Assembly (NCBI GenBank): GCA_016186905.1
Contig: JACPKS010000090.1
Coordinates: 1 to 32,455 of the forward strand
Direction: 5' to 3'
Length of the DNA: 32,455 nucleotides
Origin: Deltaproteobacteria bacterium
GTDB taxonomy: Bacteria > Bdellovibrionota > UBA1018 > UBA923
Notes under the pieces: generated by a model
Database searches by the model: none
What the model was told of the DNA's origin: nothing
The model's input: the letters and a program-made list of their open reading frames with translations, nothing else
Made by a program: the position numbers and the translations under genes
Part shown: piece after piece, positions 4,053-10,394 of the stretch
Position numbering within the stretch: position 1 is the first letter of the stretch
Layout: the number at the start of each line of letters is the position of its first letter

Positions 4053-4118
4053 CGCCTGATTTCACCTTATAGATCTTGCAACTCGCGTTTGACTGGCGAC
4101 GATCCAACGCGCTAGCTT
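4053..4118 (+). promoter_or_regulatory. Box 1: degenerate CCTTAC-type box with promoter
   Basis: TTTCACCTTAT at 4060-4070 matches the left arm of the boxes upstream of the next genes, but the right arm (TTGCAA, 4076-4081) is poor. A related half-site, CGCCTG, lies exactly 10 bp upstream of CACCTT. The -35 hexamer TTGACT (4089-4094) sits 26 bp from the start of CACC, the same offset as in the other four boxes. A -10 candidate, TAGCTT (4113-4118), follows after 18 bp, and the ATG at 4126 comes 7 bp later, which would make the transcript leaderless. Confidence 0.5.
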
Positions 4119-4125
4119 GCGCGCG

Positions 4126-4887
4126 ATGACATTCAAATCAACCACGAAACTGACACTCCGGTCCGCTTTGTTTCTTCTTTTGTTTTCCTATCATCCCGCC
4201 TCCGCGAATTTTTATTGTTACCGAAACCCTCCCGGCCACAAGCATCCTAACGGCGGCGGATACGTCGCGGATACCGCCTATGTCGATAAATACGCATACA
4301 TCGCCCCTGGTGTGAGCGTTTGCGACCGCGCTCAAATCCATGGGGCTGTCTTCGTCTCAGGATTCAGCGAGATCACACATGACGCCATGATCGTGCAGGA
4401 AGGCGATGGCGAAATCGCCATCACCGGAAACGTCATCATCCGCGGCCGCGCGCAAGTGCGAGGCATGGTGCGGATCAGCGGCGACGCCGAAATCCGCGGC
4501 GACGCGAAAGTGCTCGACTGGGCTCATATCACGGGCGCCGCCGACATCGGCGGAAACGTGACGATCAAAGACTGGGCGCTCATCAGCGGCAATGGATACT
4601 TTTACGACAAGGCGATTATTTCCGGATGGGCTAAGGTTACTGGCGATGCCGACATCGGCGGCCAAGCTCAAATCAGCGAACACGCGCAAGTTCTCGGCCC
4701 TTCCTCGATTCGCGACACCGTTCAAATCAACGGAAGCGCGCGGATTTTCGGCGGCCCGGTGATTTGCGGCGAGCTCGTCATTACCCGCGACATCACGGGT
4801 AACGAAGACCCGAAGACTTTGTGCAAAAGTTCGGGCAGGGAAATGTCGGCGCACCATAACCGAGCATTTCAGACGAAATACCTGTAG
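4126..4887 (+). CDS. Secreted left-handed beta-helix (hexapeptide-repeat-like) protein
   Basis: 253 residues from ATG 4126; a TTG at 4117 is also in frame but lies inside the predicted promoter. A signal peptide covers roughly residues 1-28 (hydrophobic core SALFLLLFSY, ending HPASA). From about residue 45 to 225 the chain is a run of short repeats of the form A-x-I-x-G-x-A-x-V-x-G with Ile/Val at every sixth position, for example VRISGDAEIRGDAKV and AHITGAADIGGNVTI. This is the signature of a left-handed beta helix, as in YdcK-like or polymer-forming proteins. These folds are usually cytoplasmic acyltransferases; an exported one without an obvious catalytic His suggests a structural or surface role. 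Two Cys in the tail may form a disulphide. The stop codon lies inside an 18-bp perfect palindrome. Confidence 0.75.
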   Translation: MTFKSTTKLTLRSALFLLLFSYHPASANFYCYRNPPGHKHPNGGGYVADTAYVDKYAYIAPGVSVCDRAQIHGAVFVSGFSEITHDAMIVQEGDGEIAITGNVIIRGRAQVRGMVRISGDAEIRGDAKVLDWAHITGAADIGGNVTIKDWALISGNGYFYDKAIISGWAKVTGDADIGGQAQISEHAQVLGPSSIRDTVQINGSARIFGGPVICGELVITRDITGNEDPKTLCKSSGREMSAHHNRAFQTKYL

Positions 4888-4897
4888 CGCTACAGGT
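4880..4897. promoter_or_regulatory. 18-bp perfect palindrome, possible operator
   Basis: ACCTGTAGCGCTACAGGT is perfectly self-complementary with no loop, so it suits a DNA-binding dimer rather than an RNA hairpin. It spans the stop codon of the beta-helix gene. Its core GTAGCGCTAC (4884-4893) recurs at 8774-8783. Both copies lie 80-90 bp upstream of a CCTTAC-type box. Confidence 0.4.
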
Positions 4898-4953
4898 TCG
4901 AAAATCAACCCCATATGTCTTTAGTTTTGCGATATTGGCCTTTAACTCTACTT

Positions 4954-4995
4954 CTCCTTATTTCACCTTACGATTCGTAAGGCCATTGATTGACG
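4954..4995 (+). promoter_or_regulatory. Box 2: CCTTAC-N5-GTAAGG with -35 element
   Basis: Perfect inverted repeat CCTTAC (4966-4971), GATTC, GTAAGG (4977-4982). A further half-site, CTCCTT (4954-4959), repeats CACCTT (4964-4969) at a 10-bp period. Seven bp after the box comes TTGACG (4990-4995), itself one arm of a second perfect dyad, TTGACG-N5-CGTCAA (4990-5006). At 17-bp spacing the -10 position reads TGCGTT, which is poor, so this promoter may be decayed like the gene it precedes. Confidence 0.65.
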
Positions 4996-5065
4996 CAATA
5001 CGTCAAATATTGTGCGTTGCGCTGATCTGAGCAAACATGCGGTTACTTGAAGTTTTGGAGGCCCA

Positions 5066-5608
5066 ATGAATTTCGGAAAATTCGCAATCCTTGTCGCGGC
5101 GCTATCTTTTAGTCTCACTTACGCCAACGCTCAGCCGCAGGGCACGCCTGACTGGGGCAAAATCGCGCGGAAGGCCGCTGCCGCGACGGATTCCGAGCTC
5201 AGCGAACGGGATAGTTTTGAAGTAAAGAGAGTCCCGCAGTACGCGGTCAAAGAGACCGCATCGTATAAGACGGGCTCAAGCGTCATGTCCTCGCCCGCCG
5301 TCGCGAAGGACGGCACGCTGGTGGTGGGGTCATACGACGGCTCGGTGTATTTTCTGAAATCGGACGGAAAGAAGAAGACGGTTTTTGAATCTGAGTTGAA
5401 GGACTGGCAGCCACGTATCGGTGATTCCCTGCGCGAACAAGTGCCGAATCGCCTGAAGCAGCGGTTTGGGCGAATTCCTCGATCGACCCGTACGCGCGGT
5501 CCCATAGCAGCGAGGTTTCGAATTTCTTTTTCTCAAGAATTTCAGCGGGGAGATCAGGTCATCCGCACGGATGCCGAGCGCGACGGAAATCCGTCTCAGC
5601 GATTTTGA
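5066..5608 (+). pseudogene. Truncated PQQ-like beta-propeller secreted protein
   Basis: Starts at ATG 5066 after a good GGAGG site (TTTTGGAGGCCCA). The first about 22 residues are a signal peptide ending YANAQ. Residues 70-110 contain one recognisable PQQ-type propeller blade (SVMSSPAVAKDGTLVVGSYDG), which in intact proteins is repeated six to eight times. From about residue 112 the frame loses propeller character and becomes Arg-rich and unlike any blade. At the DNA level that part overlaps, on the other strand, sequence resembling an XRE regulator. The simplest reading is a deletion or rearrangement near 5395-5410 that fused a propeller start to foreign DNA. A short functional protein cannot be excluded. 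Confidence 0.55.
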
Positions 5609-5644
5609 ACTTCGCCGGCATCTCTTTCCGCACCTTTTCTCACC
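5404..5644 (-). pseudogene. Possible remnant of an XRE-family regulator
   Basis: On the minus strand, 5552-5629 reads SSKSLRRISVALGIRADDLI near its end, which resembles the last helices of a HTH_3 (XRE) domain (the usual pattern is P-S-x-x-x-L-x-R-I-A-x-A-L-G-V-x-x-D-D-L). Directly downstream but in another frame (5555 down to 5404) a stretch containing KKKFETSLLWDRAYGSIEEF looks protein-like. The two pieces are separated by a frameshift, a TAA closes the upstream end at 5645-5647, and no start codon is available. It is therefore a decayed fragment at best. This was read by eye; the similarity is short. Confidence 0.3.
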
Positions 5645-5695
5645 TTACACTACGTAAGGCTATTCCTTGACGCATTGGGTCATGCGCTGTATATT
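5631..5695 (+). promoter_or_regulatory. Box 3: CCTTAC-N5-GTAAGG with near-consensus promoter
   Basis: Perfect inverted repeat CCTTAC (5643-5648), ACTAC, GTAAGG (5654-5659). The half-site CACCTT occurs at 5631-5636 and again at 5641-5646, exactly 10 bp apart. After a 7-bp gap come -35 TTGACG (5667-5672), a 17-bp spacer and -10 TATATT (5690-5695), a strong sigma-70 arrangement. The start site would be near 5702, giving a short leader that carries the GGAGG site of the following gene. Confidence 0.75.
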
Positions 5696-5719
5696 TCGCG
5701 CCTTCATCACGGAGGTTTT

Positions 5720-6178
5720 ATGAAAAAAACGCTGATTTTATCGCTAATTTGTCTGGGTCTTGCTTCCTCAGCCTCATATGCCGACTCCAGGGCTTGCCAG
5801 CTCAGCATTTACCCGAAGGGAAAACCGGCTCGGAAGATCGAGAAGGCAGTGGAACTCGGTGAAACGATGCAAGTCGTGGCGGTAGGCCCAAATTATTGCG
5901 CGGAACTACAAATGGGAAAGACCGATAGCAGCTTCGGAAAGTTCTCGGGTATGGACAACTTTTATTTGTCGATCACCGACGGCCAGCCGAAGGAAGAGAC
6001 GATCGACGGACAAAAAGAAACCCGATGCGTGTTTTCGAACCGAGGCATGGCGCAGGCTCACTCCTTTGTCGACTCTGCAGGTCCTATTTTTATCGAAATT
6101 CAGGGCATCGAAAGCAAAGGGTTGTTTTCGAAACCTGGCGCTGATCTCTATGTTTTGGATTGCACCCCAAACCACTGA
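5720..6178 (+). CDS. Secreted protein of unknown function
   Basis: 152 residues. The ATG at 5720 is chosen over the longer in-frame start at 5675 because ACGGAGGTTTT lies directly before it and because the longer start would fall inside the promoter. The signal peptide is MKKTLILSLICLGLASSASYA. The mature chain has four Cys spread over its length (near residues 26, 60, 104 and 148), consistent with two disulphides in the periplasm or outside the cell. No domain is recognised. It is the first gene after box 3, and its stop is followed within 4 bp by a hairpin repeat shared with the next gene, so 5720-7249 may be one transcript. Confidence 0.7.
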   Translation: MKKTLILSLICLGLASSASYADSRACQLSIYPKGKPARKIEKAVELGETMQVVAVGPNYCAELQMGKTDSSFGKFSGMDNFYLSITDGQPKEETIDGQKETRCVFSNRGMAQAHSFVDSAGPIFIEIQGIESKGLFSKPGADLYVLDCTPNH

Positions 6179-6182
6179 ATTT

Positions 6183-6221
6183 CCGCGCAACGAATGCGCG
6201 TTTAAGCGAAGAAATTCGGCG
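6183..6221 (+). repeat. Intergenic hairpin repeat, copy 1
   Basis: A 39-bp unit starting 4 bp after a stop codon. It begins with the hairpin CGCGCA-ACGAA-TGCGCG, then TTTAAGCGAAG. Copy 2 at 6708-6746 matches 38 of 39 bases, the single difference being in the loop. It could be a weak terminator, a processing or stability hairpin, or simply flank carried along with a tandem gene duplication. Confidence 0.75.
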
Positions 6222-6259
6222 AAGGCCATGGAGCAAAAATATTGGATAGGAGAACATCG

Positions 6260-6703
6260 ATGTCGAAAAAAATATTTGGAACTTTTGTTTTAATGGCCCT
6301 CATTACTACCAGCGTTGTCCACGCCGCCCCATCTCTCCTTTGTAGGGCGCGGTGGGACGGAGCGTCCGATGGAAATAATGGTGCTTTTTTGATCGGAGAA
6401 AACATGGAGGCCGATTGTAGCACGAAAATCAACAGAGAGGAGCGATCCGCTTCAGTATATTTCTTCGGAGTTGGCCCAGGGCTTCGTATAAGTGATGAAC
6501 GATTCATTCTTAGTTGTCCGCTTGTACGGAAATCAAAAATGAACGGCGCTTTTTATGGAATCAAAGTCGCTGCGGTTGCTGGTATTGGCGCGCATGTCGG
6601 AGTTTTTACGAATCAACGCCTAGGCGTATGCGTCCTTACCGGCGTGGACATAGGAGTCGGTGCGGAAGTCACAATTGGAAAAATGGAAGTCAATATTCCC
6701 TGA
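6260..6703 (+). CDS. Secreted protein, tandem paralog A
   Basis: 147 residues from ATG 6260, preceded by GGATAGGAGAACATCG; a TTG at 6242 in the same frame is less likely. The signal peptide ends VVHA. The mature protein shares a pattern with the next gene: LLC near the start, an Asp-Cys, [IV]GPG[LF]R, a Cys-Pro pair ([SI]CP), then GVC-[VF]-[LI]-TG and a Gly-rich C-terminal end. The conserved Cys positions suggest the same disulphide-bonded beta fold. The two are clear tandem paralogs although sequence identity is modest. I do not know the family; DUF992-like small periplasmic proteins have a loosely similar look but I cannot assign it. Confidence 0.7.
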   Translation: MSKKIFGTFVLMALITTSVVHAAPSLLCRARWDGASDGNNGAFLIGENMEADCSTKINREERSASVYFFGVGPGLRISDERFILSCPLVRKSKMNGAFYGIKVAAVAGIGAHVGVFTNQRLGVCVLTGVDIGVGAEVTIGKMEVNIP

Positions 6704-6707
6704 TCAT

Positions 6708-6746
6708 CCGCGCAACGACTGCGCGTTTAAGCGAAGAAATTCGGCG
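6708..6746 (+). repeat. Intergenic hairpin repeat, copy 2
   Basis: Second copy of the 39-bp unit at 6183-6221, again just after a stop codon (5 bp), with hairpin CGCGCA-ACGAC-TGCGCG. A third, degenerate copy seems to follow the next gene at about 7254-7287, sharing CCGC, AACG, TGC and GCGAAGAA in order. Confidence 0.75.
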
Positions 6747-6784
6747 CGAGCCCTGGATAGCAGACATCGGATTTTGGAGGTCAC

Positions 6785-7249
6785 ATGAATAAATTGCTCG
6801 TTCTTCTAAGTTTAGTCGCTCTGGTTCTCGTCAAAAGCGAACCCGCGCATGCTTTCACCCTGCTCTGCAAAGCGGATGAAAGCATTCACCTGCTTGCGGC
6901 CGGATTCACGACCATGGATTGCGTAGAGCCCAAGACGGGTCTGACGTTCACGACCGAGGAAATCGAAATCGGGCCGGGCTTTCGCTTTACGCCCTTCATG
7001 GAAGACGCGTCGGCGGTGGCAAAATACGTGGCGATTACGTGTCCGTTCATGGGCAAAAAACGTTTGGCGCGCATGAACTCCGGAGACACCCTCGTGATCG
7101 CCGGCATGGTCGCGGACGCAAACGCTCTGGTTGGAATAAGACTTGGCGTAGAAGTCGGACGGCCTGGCGTTTGCTTCATCACCGGCGCATCGGCGTTTGA
7201 GCTGGGCGGTGAGCTCGCGTTGGACGGTCTCAGGATTATTAAAGACTGA
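6785..7249 (+). CDS. Secreted protein, tandem paralog B
   Basis: 154 residues, ATG 6785 after TTTTGGAGGTCAC. The signal peptide ends EPAHA. It shares with its upstream neighbour the order LLCKA, MDC, IGPGFRF, ITCP, GVCFITG and a Gly-rich end, so it arose by tandem duplication followed by strong divergence. It has one extra insertion (about ten residues) between GPGFR and ITCP. Its own ribosome site is strong and no promoter is visible between the paralogs, so co-transcription from box 3 is likely. Function unknown; export to the periplasm or beyond is inferred. Confidence 0.7.
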   Translation: MNKLLVLLSLVALVLVKSEPAHAFTLLCKADESIHLLAAGFTTMDCVEPKTGLTFTTEEIEIGPGFRFTPFMEDASAVAKYVAITCPFMGKKRLARMNSGDTLVIAGMVADANALVGIRLGVEVGRPGVCFITGASAFELGGELALDGLRIIKD

Positions 7250-7289
7250 TTTCCCGCTGAACGCCTGCTCACAAACGCGAAGAATTTTA

Positions 7290-7354
7290 CACCTTCATTC
7301 ACCTTACGTTAAGTAAGGCAAATTATTGACGCTATGCGTAGCTTGAATTATATA
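7290..7354 (+). promoter_or_regulatory. Box 4: CCTTAC-N5-GTAAGG with near-consensus promoter
   Basis: Perfect inverted repeat CCTTAC (7302-7307), GTTAA, GTAAGG (7313-7318), with CACCTT half-sites at 7290-7295 and 7300-7305, 10 bp apart. A 7-bp gap leads to -35 TTGACG (7326-7331), then a 17-bp spacer and -10 TATATA (7349-7354). The ATG at 7363 comes 8 bp after the -10 and there is no ribosome site, so the mRNA is probably leaderless. Confidence 0.8.
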
Positions 7355-7362
7355 TCACTCCC

Positions 7363-8268
7363 ATGAAACCACACGCGCTCAAAGTCAGCTTGTACGCGAC
7401 GTTATTCGGTGTATTCGCGCTCGCGCTCCCGGCGAGCGCTGGCGCTGACGCTTTCGGCTCGAACTGCCGTATCGCACTTCACGTCGATTCGGACTTCACG
7501 CGGGATCAAGCGAGCACGATGGAAGCCGCTCTTGTGAAAAAAGGATACGACGTGAGAATGACGAATTCCCATTCCGATGATCCGAAGGAATTCAGCGGCT
7601 ATATCGGAATGGATCACGGCTGGGATCTTTTTCACCGCTATGCCTCGATCGACATCTCCCGCCCCGGCGAGTCGCTTTACAAGGAATACCTCCCCGTTAC
7701 GACGGGGATTTTTTGGAATAGGGCGACACGGAAGATCGTTAAAGCGCTCGAGAAAAACGTTCCCGAGTGCTGCGAGCCGATCGCCGGAACGTACGTGCTT
7801 GAAGAAGGCGGGTGCTCCGACGGAGCGAATCAAAAAAATATGCTTTTCCTGGAGCACGACGGCGGAACGATCGCGATTCCTCAGGGCGAGAGAGTCAGCA
7901 TTTCCGGATCGACTTGCGGCAAAATCAGTTTTTCCATCGGCGGTCAAATCGACCTGCGCGCCGCCGCGCACGACAAGCACGTCACGGTTACGACGACGAA
8001 GATTCCGGGCGGAATCCATTATGAGCGCGTCACGGAAAGGCATCTCTCGATCTGGAACGACTACCGCTACTGCCCGCTCTGCGGAGCGACGCCGCTCCCC
8101 GATCACATCGCCCATGTGTCTGGCTACCACTCGTTGAAATTGAAATTTCAAAAAGACGGTCTTTTGGTTGAACAATTTGTCCGCAACTCCGTTGAGGCCG
8201 TGCGCGGAAAAGACTTTCACGGTATTTCCGAGATTCAATGTGTGATGAAAAAAGTCGACGATAAATAA
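7363..8268 (+). CDS. Secreted Cys-containing protein of unknown function
   Basis: 301 residues from ATG 7363; this start sits at the predicted transcription start. The signal peptide ends SAGA or GADA around residues 25-30. The N-terminal part (about 33-110) looks like an alpha/beta module (CRIALHVDSDFTRDQASTMEAALVKKGYDVRM). The middle carries a Cys-Cys pair (PECCEP) and further Cys, and around residue 245 there is a YCPLCG motif that resembles a Cys-x-x-Cys metal or redox site. I cannot name a family. The downstream small secreted gene begins 15 bp after the stop with its own ribosome site, so the two probably form an operon driven by box 4. Confidence 0.7.
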   Translation: MKPHALKVSLYATLFGVFALALPASAGADAFGSNCRIALHVDSDFTRDQASTMEAALVKKGYDVRMTNSHSDDPKEFSGYIGMDHGWDLFHRYASIDISRPGESLYKEYLPVTTGIFWNRATRKIVKALEKNVPECCEPIAGTYVLEEGGCSDGANQKNMLFLEHDGGTIAIPQGERVSISGSTCGKISFSIGGQIDLRAAAHDKHVTVTTTKIPGGIHYERVTERHLSIWNDYRYCPLCGATPLPDHIAHVSGYHSLKLKFQKDGLLVEQFVRNSVEAVRGKDFHGISEIQCVMKKVDDK

Positions 8269-8283
8269 AAAAGGAGTGTCTGT

Positions 8284-8640
8284 ATGAGAATTTTGATGAT
8301 TATACTGCTGGGTCTGACGGTATCGCAAATCGCGTCGGCCTATCCTTCCGACGGAGTTTATTTTCCGATCCAATCCTGCGACGGCGCGGTTGACGGCAAT
8401 CACATGAAAATCACGGTGTTCGCGACACCGCGCATGGCCGCGATGGCGATGTACAAACTCGACGGCGAAAAAACCGTTTTGATGAACGCGAGACTGACCC
8501 GAAAACCCGACGGCCGAACGATTTCGGTTTCCATTCCCGAACTGGGCACGTTTTCGGTCATCGATGGCCAAAACTCGTCTCCGGACCTCATGGGACGAGA
8601 CGGTACCGTTATCGGCCTCCGGTGCCAGGCGATCTTTTGA
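8284..8640 (+). CDS. Small secreted protein of unknown function
   Basis: 118 residues, ATG 8284 after AAAAGGAGTGTCTGT. The signal peptide is short (MRILMIILLGLTVSQIASA). The mature domain of about 99 residues has two Cys (near residues 31 and 114) that could close a disulphide between the start and end of the fold, and alternating hydrophobic residues typical of a small beta barrel or sandwich. Second gene of a probable two-gene unit after the box 4 promoter. No family recognised. Confidence 0.65.
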   Translation: MRILMIILLGLTVSQIASAYPSDGVYFPIQSCDGAVDGNHMKITVFATPRMAAMAMYKLDGEKTVLMNARLTRKPDGRTISVSIPELGTFSVIDGQNSSPDLMGRDGTVIGLRCQAIF

Positions 8641-8652
8641 TCGGCGTTTTTT
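8630..8652 (+). terminator. Weak intrinsic terminator candidate
   Basis: CGATC-TTTT-GATCG (8630-8643) followed by GCG and six T (8647-8652), overlapping the stop of the small secreted gene. The stem is only 5 bp, so termination may be inefficient. Confidence 0.4.
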
Positions 8653-8864
8653 AGGAAATGGAAGCTGCGATGAGTCACATCGCTAATTCATCCGACAATT
8701 TGCACGGCGCATGGGCAATCACCATACTGTTAAAGGCTGCGCAATAGTCGATTGTTTCAGGCAAAATGCATTGGTAGCGCTACAGGCATATCGAGGTCCA
8801 AAAATCGCTGTCGATTTCTGATATAAATAATCTTTTTATTTCAGGTATTTATAAAAAAATACTA
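8653..8864. other. Intergenic region with AT-rich dyads
   Basis: No convincing gene here. It holds a second GTAGCGCTAC palindrome (8774-8783, in the wider match GTAGCGCTACAGG shared with 4884-4896) and an AT-rich inverted repeat, TATAAATA (8822-8829) / TATTTATA (8846-8853), just upstream of box 5. These could be binding sites controlling the TIGR02147 gene. Confidence 0.45.
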
Positions 8865-8917
8865 CCTTGCGCGCCGTAAGGTTTATTGTTGATTATTTTG
8901 GTATAGCAATATATAAC
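8865..8917 (+). promoter_or_regulatory. Box 5: promoter of the TIGR02147 regulator
   Basis: CCTTGC (8865-8870), GCGCC, GTAAGG (8876-8881): one mismatch to the common box. A 7-bp gap, -35 TTGATT (8889-8894), 17-bp spacer and -10 TATAAC (8912-8917) follow, with the ATG at 8926 only 8 bp further, so the transcript is probably leaderless. There is no extra half-site 10 bp upstream; that place holds an A-run. The box ahead of a regulator gene suggests autoregulation. Confidence 0.7.
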
Positions 8918-8925
8918 TCTGCGTC

Positions 8926-9723
8926 ATGATTGGTCCAGATCACGATTATCGCCAAGTTTTAAGCCGCGAGCTTGAGGTGCGCTGCCAGCGCAACCCGCGC
9001 TACTCGCTTCGAAGCTTCGCACGGGACTTGGGGATGGCGCCAGCGCAGCTCTCTGACATTTTGCGCGGGCGCTACGGAATCTCTCGCGCTTCCGCGGCGA
9101 ACATCGCCGACCGCATGAGCATGGGGAGCACTGAAAAAGAAATTTTCTGCGATCTCGTCGAAAGCAAACACGCTAGGAGCCAACTCCAAAGAAAGCTCGC
9201 GCTGGCGCGCTTGGCGAAACAAGAAAAACAATACAGCACGATCGCGCTCGACAGCTTCCAGGCGATCTCGGATTGGTATCACTTCGCGATTCTCGAACTC
9301 GTAACGCTTGACGACTTTCAGAATGACCTGACGTGGATCGCGAATACGCTTGGAATCACAACGCACGAAGCGAAATCGGCGATCGAAAGGTTGAAACGCC
9401 TGGATATGCTCGTCGAAACCAAAGGAGAGCTCAAGCCTGCCGAGGATTTCACGGCAACGCCCAGCGGAATTCCCTCGGATGCGATCCGGAAGTTCCATCA
9501 ACAAATCTTGAAGAAGGCCGGCCAGGCGCTGCACATGCAGCCGGTGGAGCGTCGCGATTACTCGGCGATCACGTTCGCGATCGACCGCGCAAGGCTCCCT
9601 GAAGCCAAGCGCGCGATTCAAAGATTCCGCAAACGCTTCTGCCAGGAATTCTCAAGCGGTGAAACAAGAAACGACGTCTATGTGTACGCGACGCAATTTT
9701 TTAGCCTAAGGGAGACCCTATGA
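8926..9723 (+). CDS. TIGR02147-family transcriptional regulator
   Basis: 265 residues. The N-terminal third carries a lambda-repressor-like helix-turn-helix (RSFARDLGMAPAQLSDILRG, about residues 26-50, then ISRASAANIADRM). This is followed by the helical region with the YHFAILELVTLDDF signature (about 120-135) and a C-terminal domain near DYSAITFAIDRARL. These are hallmarks of TIGR02147 (DUF4423) proteins, common in Bdellovibrionota and Fibrobacteres, where they often sit beside secreted or surface proteins. The gene overlaps the next secreted-protein gene by ATGA, so the pair is translationally coupled. Its promoter carries the same box as the secreted-protein genes upstream, making it the best candidate for the factor that binds them. 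DNA targets of this family are, as far as I know, not well defined. Confidence 0.88.
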   Translation: MIGPDHDYRQVLSRELEVRCQRNPRYSLRSFARDLGMAPAQLSDILRGRYGISRASAANIADRMSMGSTEKEIFCDLVESKHARSQLQRKLALARLAKQEKQYSTIALDSFQAISDWYHFAILELVTLDDFQNDLTWIANTLGITTHEAKSAIERLKRLDMLVETKGELKPAEDFTATPSGIPSDAIRKFHQQILKKAGQALHMQPVERRDYSAITFAIDRARLPEAKRAIQRFRKRFCQEFSSGETRNDVYVYATQFFSLRETL

Positions 9724-10394
9724 AAACGAACCGTAATTCGATGAAGGATGTATTTTCAAAGCTCGCGATGTTTGCGGCTCTTGCCGCGGTGGCAGCGCCT
9801 GGCCCGAGCTTCGCCGGCAAAGGCGGGAGCGGGCGCGACGTCGGAAACGGCGGTCTTGCGGTCGTTTGCCGCGACAGCGAAGGCGCCATCGACATCGTCG
9901 AAGTGCTCGATCTTTTCGAAGGCAGGTCGCAGTACGGTTTGAACATCCCGGAAGGAAAATGGGACGTCGACACGCTTCTTGAGTCGGCGATCGTGCGCCT
10001 GAAATCGCGCCAGGATTTTCAGAGGGGCGTTCAGGCCGAACTTGCGCATGTGCGCTCGAATCTGAAGAAACTTCCCAAAAACGTGCGCCTTTTGAACATC
10101 GATGACGCGTTTCCGCTTGTCATCATGCCGCCGTGCAAATTCGAGCAGCTCGCGGCGTACGCGCGGGATGGAAAAATTTATCTCGACTCCGAGCTTCATA
10201 AGGCGCTGACGAAAACTCAGGAAGCAGCACTTTATCTGCACGAAGCGATTTATAAGGTGGCGCGTTATCACGGCGCGGCGAATTCGGTTCAGGCGAGAAA
10301 ACTCAACGCTCATCTTTTTACCGAAACCGCGGACGCCGCGGCGATCGATGCGCTCGTTGACGAGCTTGTTGGTTCGTCGCTGAACTACCGCTAA
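9720..10394 (+). CDS. Secreted protein coupled to the TIGR02147 regulator
   Basis: 224 residues; the ATG at 9720 overlaps the TGA of the regulator gene (ATGA). The signal peptide runs to about residue 32 (AAVAAPGPSFA). The mature start GKGGSGRDVGNGGLAVVCRD is glycine-rich, the central part is helical, and a conserved-looking element, LHEAIYKVARYHGAANSVQARKL (about residues 178-200), resembles a segment seen in other secreted proteins of Bdellovibrionota. The His-Glu there is not an HExxH protease motif. Coupling implies it is made together with the regulator, perhaps as its sensor, effector or cargo; that is inference. Confidence 0.7.
   Translation: MKTNRNSMKDVFSKLAMFAALAAVAAPGPSFAGKGGSGRDVGNGGLAVVCRDSEGAIDIVEVLDLFEGRSQYGLNIPEGKWDVDTLLESAIVRLKSRQDFQRGVQAELAHVRSNLKKLPKNVRLLNIDDAFPLVIMPPCKFEQLAAYARDGKIYLDSELHKALTKTQEAALYLHEAIYKVARYHGAANSVQARKLNAHLFTETADAAAIDALVDELVGSSLNYR

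Follow-up and report, generated by a model that had tools for sequence, protein, structure and literature searches.

A dyad box at a fixed distance from the −35 element links secreted-protein promoters to a TIGR02147 regulator, very probably as its operator

The window analyzed here is the whole 32,455-nt stretch of contig JACPKS010000090.1 from a Bdellovibrionota assembly, and our subject is a 17-bp dyad within it, CCTTAC-N5-GTAAGG (the box), which precedes several secreted-protein genes and the gene of a TIGR02147 regulator. All elements lie on the + strand. Three copies are perfect in both arms, located at 4966..4982 (inner letters gattc), 5643..5659 (actac), and 7302..7318 (gttaa), while the putative operator of the regulator itself, CCTTGC-gcgcc-GTAAGG at 8865..8881, has one mismatch. 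A first-pass annotation of this DNA had counted a fifth box with only the left arm, at 4065. This part of the claim has to be weakened, as the site (CCTTAT-agatc-TTGCAA, 4065..4081) carries one mismatch in the left arm itself and matches at one of six positions in the right arm; it shares the left flank TTTCACCTTA with other sites and is best described as a weak or half operator. The −35 element starts exactly 7 bp after the box in all five cases, as had been annotated and as direct inspection confirms: TTGACG at 4990-4995, 5667-5672, and 7326-7331, TTGATT at 8889-8894, and TTGACT at 4089-4094. Behind boxes 5643, 7302, and 8865 follow a 17-bp spacer and a good −10 element, read as TATATT (5690-5695), TATATA (7349-7354), and TATAAC (8912-8917), respectively; the −10 element of the 4966 promoter is poor (TGCGTT). 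The center of the 8865 box lies 53 bp before the ATG of the regulator at 8926, the same position at which operators of homologous regulators are found.

Every gene directly downstream codes for an exported protein or for the regulator, in line with the earlier description, with signal-peptide-like N-termini of the products starting at 4126, 5066, 5720, and 7363. The half-site 4065 precedes a secreted hexapeptide-repeat (beta-helix) protein (4126..4887, signal peptide assigned by inspection). Box 4966 is followed by a secreted beta-propeller fragment (5066..5608) whose match to an ACSF4 beta-propeller stays below the cut-off. This gene is probably truncated, or else frameshifted, and together with the lack of a good −10 element in its promoter this may mark a decaying member of the regulon. 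A small secreted protein without assignable family follows box 5643 (5720..6178), and two secreted proteins without family follow box 7302 (7363-8268 and 8284-8640). The regulator gene (8926..9723, 265 aa) overlaps by an ATGA, and is thus translationally coupled, with a gene for a secreted protein of 224 aa (9720..10394) termed here GNGG protein after its motif.

Within the whole assembly (2.86 Mb in 115 contigs, 92% complete), the perfect box occurs in three copies, all of them in the window. A search for the 20-letter pattern CACCTTAC-N5-GTAAGG-N7-TTGACG with up to three mismatches found five places, compared with 0 and 1 for reversed-pattern controls. These are the three window sites and two further ones, C30:2257-2288(-) and C92:424-455(-), both with 17-bp spacers and the −10 elements TATATT and TATACT. 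The same five places were recovered by a half-pattern of left arm and TTGACG, and a pattern extending from the box to TATANT returned them together with site 8865. Boxes C30 and C92 stand directly before genes whose products start with MKKIFIALCFLSSISALAE and MKVQILALMAVSGLNAFAG, each of which is clearly a signal peptide. The expectation that genome-wide hits would precede signal-peptide genes therefore held: all strong hits lie before such genes or the regulator, and none are scattered in coding DNA. The same operator at own and target promoters and nowhere else in the assembly is the pattern of an autoregulated local regulon. The box is not due to chance, and the observation is real.

The proteins encoded downstream of the boxes share no detectable similarity, and gene duplication therefore does not account for the box. 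The promoters 5643, C30, and C92 have flanks such as CTTTTCTCACC and the spacer letters GTCA in common, and this likeness suggests that their promoter cassettes may have been copied. Taken further, it could mean that the boxes are recently copied cassettes without regulatory role. Alternatively, since a 6-bp hairpin could form from the dyad, they might act as a hairpin or terminator in a transcript. We consider both explanations highly improbable: the two arms and the 7-bp gap have been retained, whereas spacers and flanks vary, the dissimilar downstream proteins speak against recent copying, a site upstream of the promoter is not part of the respective transcript, and the architecture is kept across genera. 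As a separate observation, a second partial dyad, TTGAC-N7-GTCA, covers the −35 element and spacer in four of the seven box promoters (4990-5006, 5667-5683, C30, and C92), centered 24 bp downstream of the box; it could be a remnant of promoter copying or else serve as an additional binding site.

The regulator belongs to TIGR02147 (143.5 bits, cut-off 50) and to DUF4423 (151.6 bits), with both profiles matched over their whole length and above cut-off. Its AlphaFold2 model (predicted local distance difference test, pLDDT, 91) starts with a five-helix helix-turn-helix (HTH) domain formed by helices 8-22, 28-35, 39-46, 54-63, and 68-82. This is an HTH of the XRE type with helix 3 as recognition helix (residues 39-46, nt 9040-9063, including D44 at nt 9055-9057), and it matches the HTH of HigA and GraA by sequence and fold; the match to Pfam HTH_31 scores 19 bits, short of the cut-off of 27. 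HigA and GraA (PDB 2icp, 6chv, 7csw, 6f8h/6fix) resemble the regulator in having an N-terminal HTH and a short dyad operator in their own promoter. They differ from it in lacking the extra C-terminal winged-helix-like DUF4423 domain and in having a toxin partner as well as an operator placed over the core promoter instead of upstream of the −35 element. In place of the adjacent toxin of a HigBA-type system, the coupled gene of the regulator encodes the signal-peptide-bearing GNGG protein without Pfam match. The entries TIGR02147 (NCBIfam 'Fsuc_second') and DUF4423 give no function, operator, or regulon, and none is described in the open-access literature searched, in which DUF4423 is mentioned only in passing. 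This is consistent with the first-pass designation of the box as undescribed.

A scan of 57 related genomes for the exact CCTTAC box module gave scattered three-mismatch matches in 3 of 57, nothing beyond chance, and conservation was therefore sought at the level of architecture. In the search for homologous regulators, the single regulator as query gave no relative and a 32-row alignment was too diverse, but a 6-row alignment worked. Going by named records, the homologues belong to the Bdellovibrionota, namely Bdellovibrionales, Bacteriovoracaceae, Oligoflexia, and Silvanigrellales. Upstream of their genes, we found a common 6-5-6 design, NNNNAC-N5-GTNNNN, with arms differing between regulators, for example, GACTAC-N5-GTAGTC-N7-TTGACA and, in a different genome, GAGAAC-N5-GTTCTC-N7-TTGACT. 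In the 150 bp before the gene, 16 of 80 regulators show a perfect AC-N5-GT dyad vs a mean of 0.125 (maximum 2) in 200 sets of dinucleotide shuffles, and 30 of 80 show any perfect 6-5-6 dyad vs 3.4. The dyad centers peak 50-55 bp before the start codon. Among the operators called with confidence (58 of 205 regulators), 22 have a TTG(AC) 7 bp behind the dyad, and no other offset is seen more than three times; the operator choice included a small bonus for 6-8 bp, and bonus-free scans show the same preference. The 17-bp spacer is present in 19 of 32, and −10 matches are above those in shuffles. The family consensus of the N5 region, ACTTT, is near ACTTC/ACTAC of the boxes C30, C92, and 5643. Conservation upstream of orthologs, which had been proposed as a check, is thus seen in part: the exact letters are not kept, whereas 6-5-6 dyads recur in the same place and at the same 7-bp distance. 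Judged by these comparisons, the window box appears as a local instance of an operator architecture belonging to the whole uncharacterized TIGR02147 family. In three loci (L064, L135, and L138), the box of the regulator is repeated before a divergent secreted-protein gene, again 7 bp from the −35 element; in L064 this gene encodes an acid phosphatase and is followed by an S1/P1 nuclease gene. These were the only convincing cases (at most one mismatch, 7 bp to the −35 element) out of 67 loose candidates for extra operator copies near the regulators of relatives, the others being chance-like.

The differing arms allowed a covariation analysis, in which the half-site was written as X6 X5 X4 X3 A C and each position was compared with the protein columns by excess mutual information. 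Across all columns, the best partner of X4 is residue 44 (z 9.2) and the best partner of X3 is residue 40 (z 6.7), both inside the recognition helix 39-46 of the predicted fold. E44 goes with G at X4 in 17 of 19 cases, K and L with A, and H, S, or R with C, with Q being mixed. After reduction to 50% redundancy (46 sequences), both kept their top rank, residue 44 leading 242 columns (z 6.9) and residue 40 leading 241 (z 6.1), and in pairs of 32-45% protein identity, X4 was equal in 74% if residue 44 was equal vs 18% if it differed. The window regulator combines D44 with TT at X4X3 (TTAC), and locus L134, also with D44, has CATTAC. A covariation of X5/X6 with residue 41 was lost on redundancy reduction and was dropped. 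Architecture, promoter specificity, and family conservation are, like this covariation with the helix, direct outcomes of the computation. The covariation is statistical in nature and indirect as evidence; it is what one would predict for a TIGR02147 protein that touches these bases and thus binds the box itself.

The genome contains two further TIGR02147 genes as well as other regulators, and of the four boxes the one at the regulator promoter is the least perfect, so that another transcription factor might bind the box with the TIGR02147 gene being merely one of its targets. We regard this as very unlikely. A third-party factor would not produce dyads before TIGR02147 genes in many genomes with arms covarying with helix 3. 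Moreover, a paralogue in the same genome (contig C62; L271, L051) with E44 has a different box of its own, TGGAAC-ggttt-GTTCCA (G000:C62:16302-16318), which is unique in the genome and agrees with the recognition code. The box is thus very probably the binding site of the neighboring TIGR02147 regulator, and the earlier proposal that this protein binds it, at its own promoter included, gains strong comparative support from the shared architecture and the helix covariation.

Our preferred reading, which we hold to be probable, is that the box is the dimer-bound operator of the regulator encoded at 8926-9723, controlling its own operon and a regulon of secreted-protein genes, most likely by activation. 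A regulator dimer would bind the 17-bp dyad through its XRE-type HTH domains, with one helical turn between the half-sites. It would control its own operon of regulator and coupled GNGG protein and a regulon of no fewer than three window promoters plus two on other contigs. The dyad is centered about 51 bp upstream of the predicted transcription start, its end is separated by 7 bp from an intact −35 element, and the bound regulator would activate by touching the RNA polymerase next to it. Positive autoregulation would then result in a self-reinforcing switch, by which a batch of exported proteins is turned on together. Physical binding, the dimer, activation, and a triggering signal are the parts of this mechanism that we infer. 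Activation is considered most likely because the dyad occupies one rotational position at a fixed distance upstream of an intact promoter. The nearest XRE proteins by sequence are the HigA and GraA antitoxins, which are autorepressors, and the window's core promoters come close to consensus unaided (5643: 10/12). Because of these relatives and fairly strong core promoters, the main rival is that the same regulator at the same operator represses, blocking RNA polymerase or its upstream contacts until a signal arrives. This appears unlikely to us, as the site is located upstream of the −35 element and not over it, with the 7-bp distance fixed across the family, which fits a contact with RNA polymerase.

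Several points weigh against this reading or against parts of it. The geometry is the sole argument for preferring activation to repression, and the regulator's own operator combines a mismatch in one arm with a weaker −35 element. The CCTTAC letters are found in no relative, and the window regulon therefore has no orthologous replicate. The regulators beyond the 58 of 205 have a variant, a displaced, or no such site. Concerning the recognition code, residue 44 loses its top rank at stricter redundancy cut-offs (26 or 18 sequences), where power is lost; the three called operators with D44 differ at X4X3 (TT, CG, and GT), E44 has a small hold-out subset (G 4, T 2), and no robust protein partner emerged for the outer arm positions X5/X6.

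Controller (C) proteins of restriction-modification systems combine an XRE-type HTH with dyad operators near the −35 element, autoregulation, and a co-regulated neighbor (examples in PMC6237814 and PMC3695507). The regulator resembles them in its HTH, in the dyad near its −35 element, and in the proposed autoregulation and co-regulation of its neighbor. Unlike C proteins, it has a single conserved dyad, with no established OL/OR pair, and a regulon of secreted proteins; its neighbors are secreted-protein genes, with no restriction or methylase genes adjacent. From the same phylum, the FliA (sigma28) attack-phase regulon of Bdellovibrio bacteriovorus is known, with the promoter TTAAG-N16-CCGATA; the study describing it (PMC3627812) detected no strong motif in the other promoters. 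It likewise comprises exported proteins but is a global sigma-factor programme without dyad box.

The link to secretion extends to the neighborhood of the family. Applying a crude signal-peptide predictor, we found a signal-peptide-like N-terminus in 136 of 163 same-strand genes directly downstream of TIGR02147 genes (83%), vs 48 of 84 divergent neighbors (57%) and 220 of 751 genes at least three positions away (29%). The 4-bp ATGA overlap, present in the window at 9720, is the commonest arrangement of regulator and downstream gene (112/190). A GNGG motif occurs in 76 of 190 downstream products, mostly at residues 21-42 immediately behind the signal peptide, and only 77 of all 2,940 open reading frames in the fetched loci have it in their first 90 residues. 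The product of 9720-10394 has homologs among the downstream products of about 30 other loci, and the invariant residues include the GG of GNGG, C50, E67, C139, HE174-175, S189, and R193. The motif consensus, as seen in the window protein and downstream of TIGR02147 genes (L051-L270), reads A-G-x-E-V-GNGG-D-A-V-V-C. No Pfam match was obtained for the window protein, a PDB fold search with its model (pLDDT 86) returned nothing significant (best hit 4qhi, selecase, E 0.46), and the literature searched holds nothing on the function of GNGG proteins. As a speculation, the coupled GNGG protein is a candidate signal partner of the regulator, and it provides a concrete second component beside it.

In predatory and related bacteria, TIGR02147 is an abundant regulator family with no assigned function, reaching 21 copies in one sampled genome. 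Operator, fixed geometry, and helix-to-base code would make the regulons of hundreds of these proteins predictable from sequence alone and would tie the family to exported proteins, a class relevant to attack or feeding in Bdellovibrionota. More tentatively, and with considerable doubt, TIGR02147 proteins of this phylum might constitute a large orthogonal set of switches for secretion programmes, each self-activating and recognizing its own 17-bp dyad via a simple residue-to-base code, with the coupled GNGG protein reporting export status or an outside signal.

Further features of the window concern its transcripts and repeats. At 7363 and 8926, the predicted transcription start adjoins the ATG and no ribosome site was seen; the mRNAs starting there thus look near-leaderless. 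Two secreted-protein genes without box (6260-6703 and 6785-7249, +) possibly belong to the transcription unit starting behind box 5643, judging from order and strand. They are preceded by the copies of a 73-bp intergenic repeat (6175-6247 and 6700-6772, 79% identical, core CGCGCAACGANTGCGCGTTTAAGCGAAGAAATTCGGCG). A palindrome, GTAGCGCTAC, is present at 4885-4897 and 8773-8784, preceding boxes 4966 and 8865 by about 70-90 bp, and its first copy coincides with the stop codon of the gene starting at 4126.

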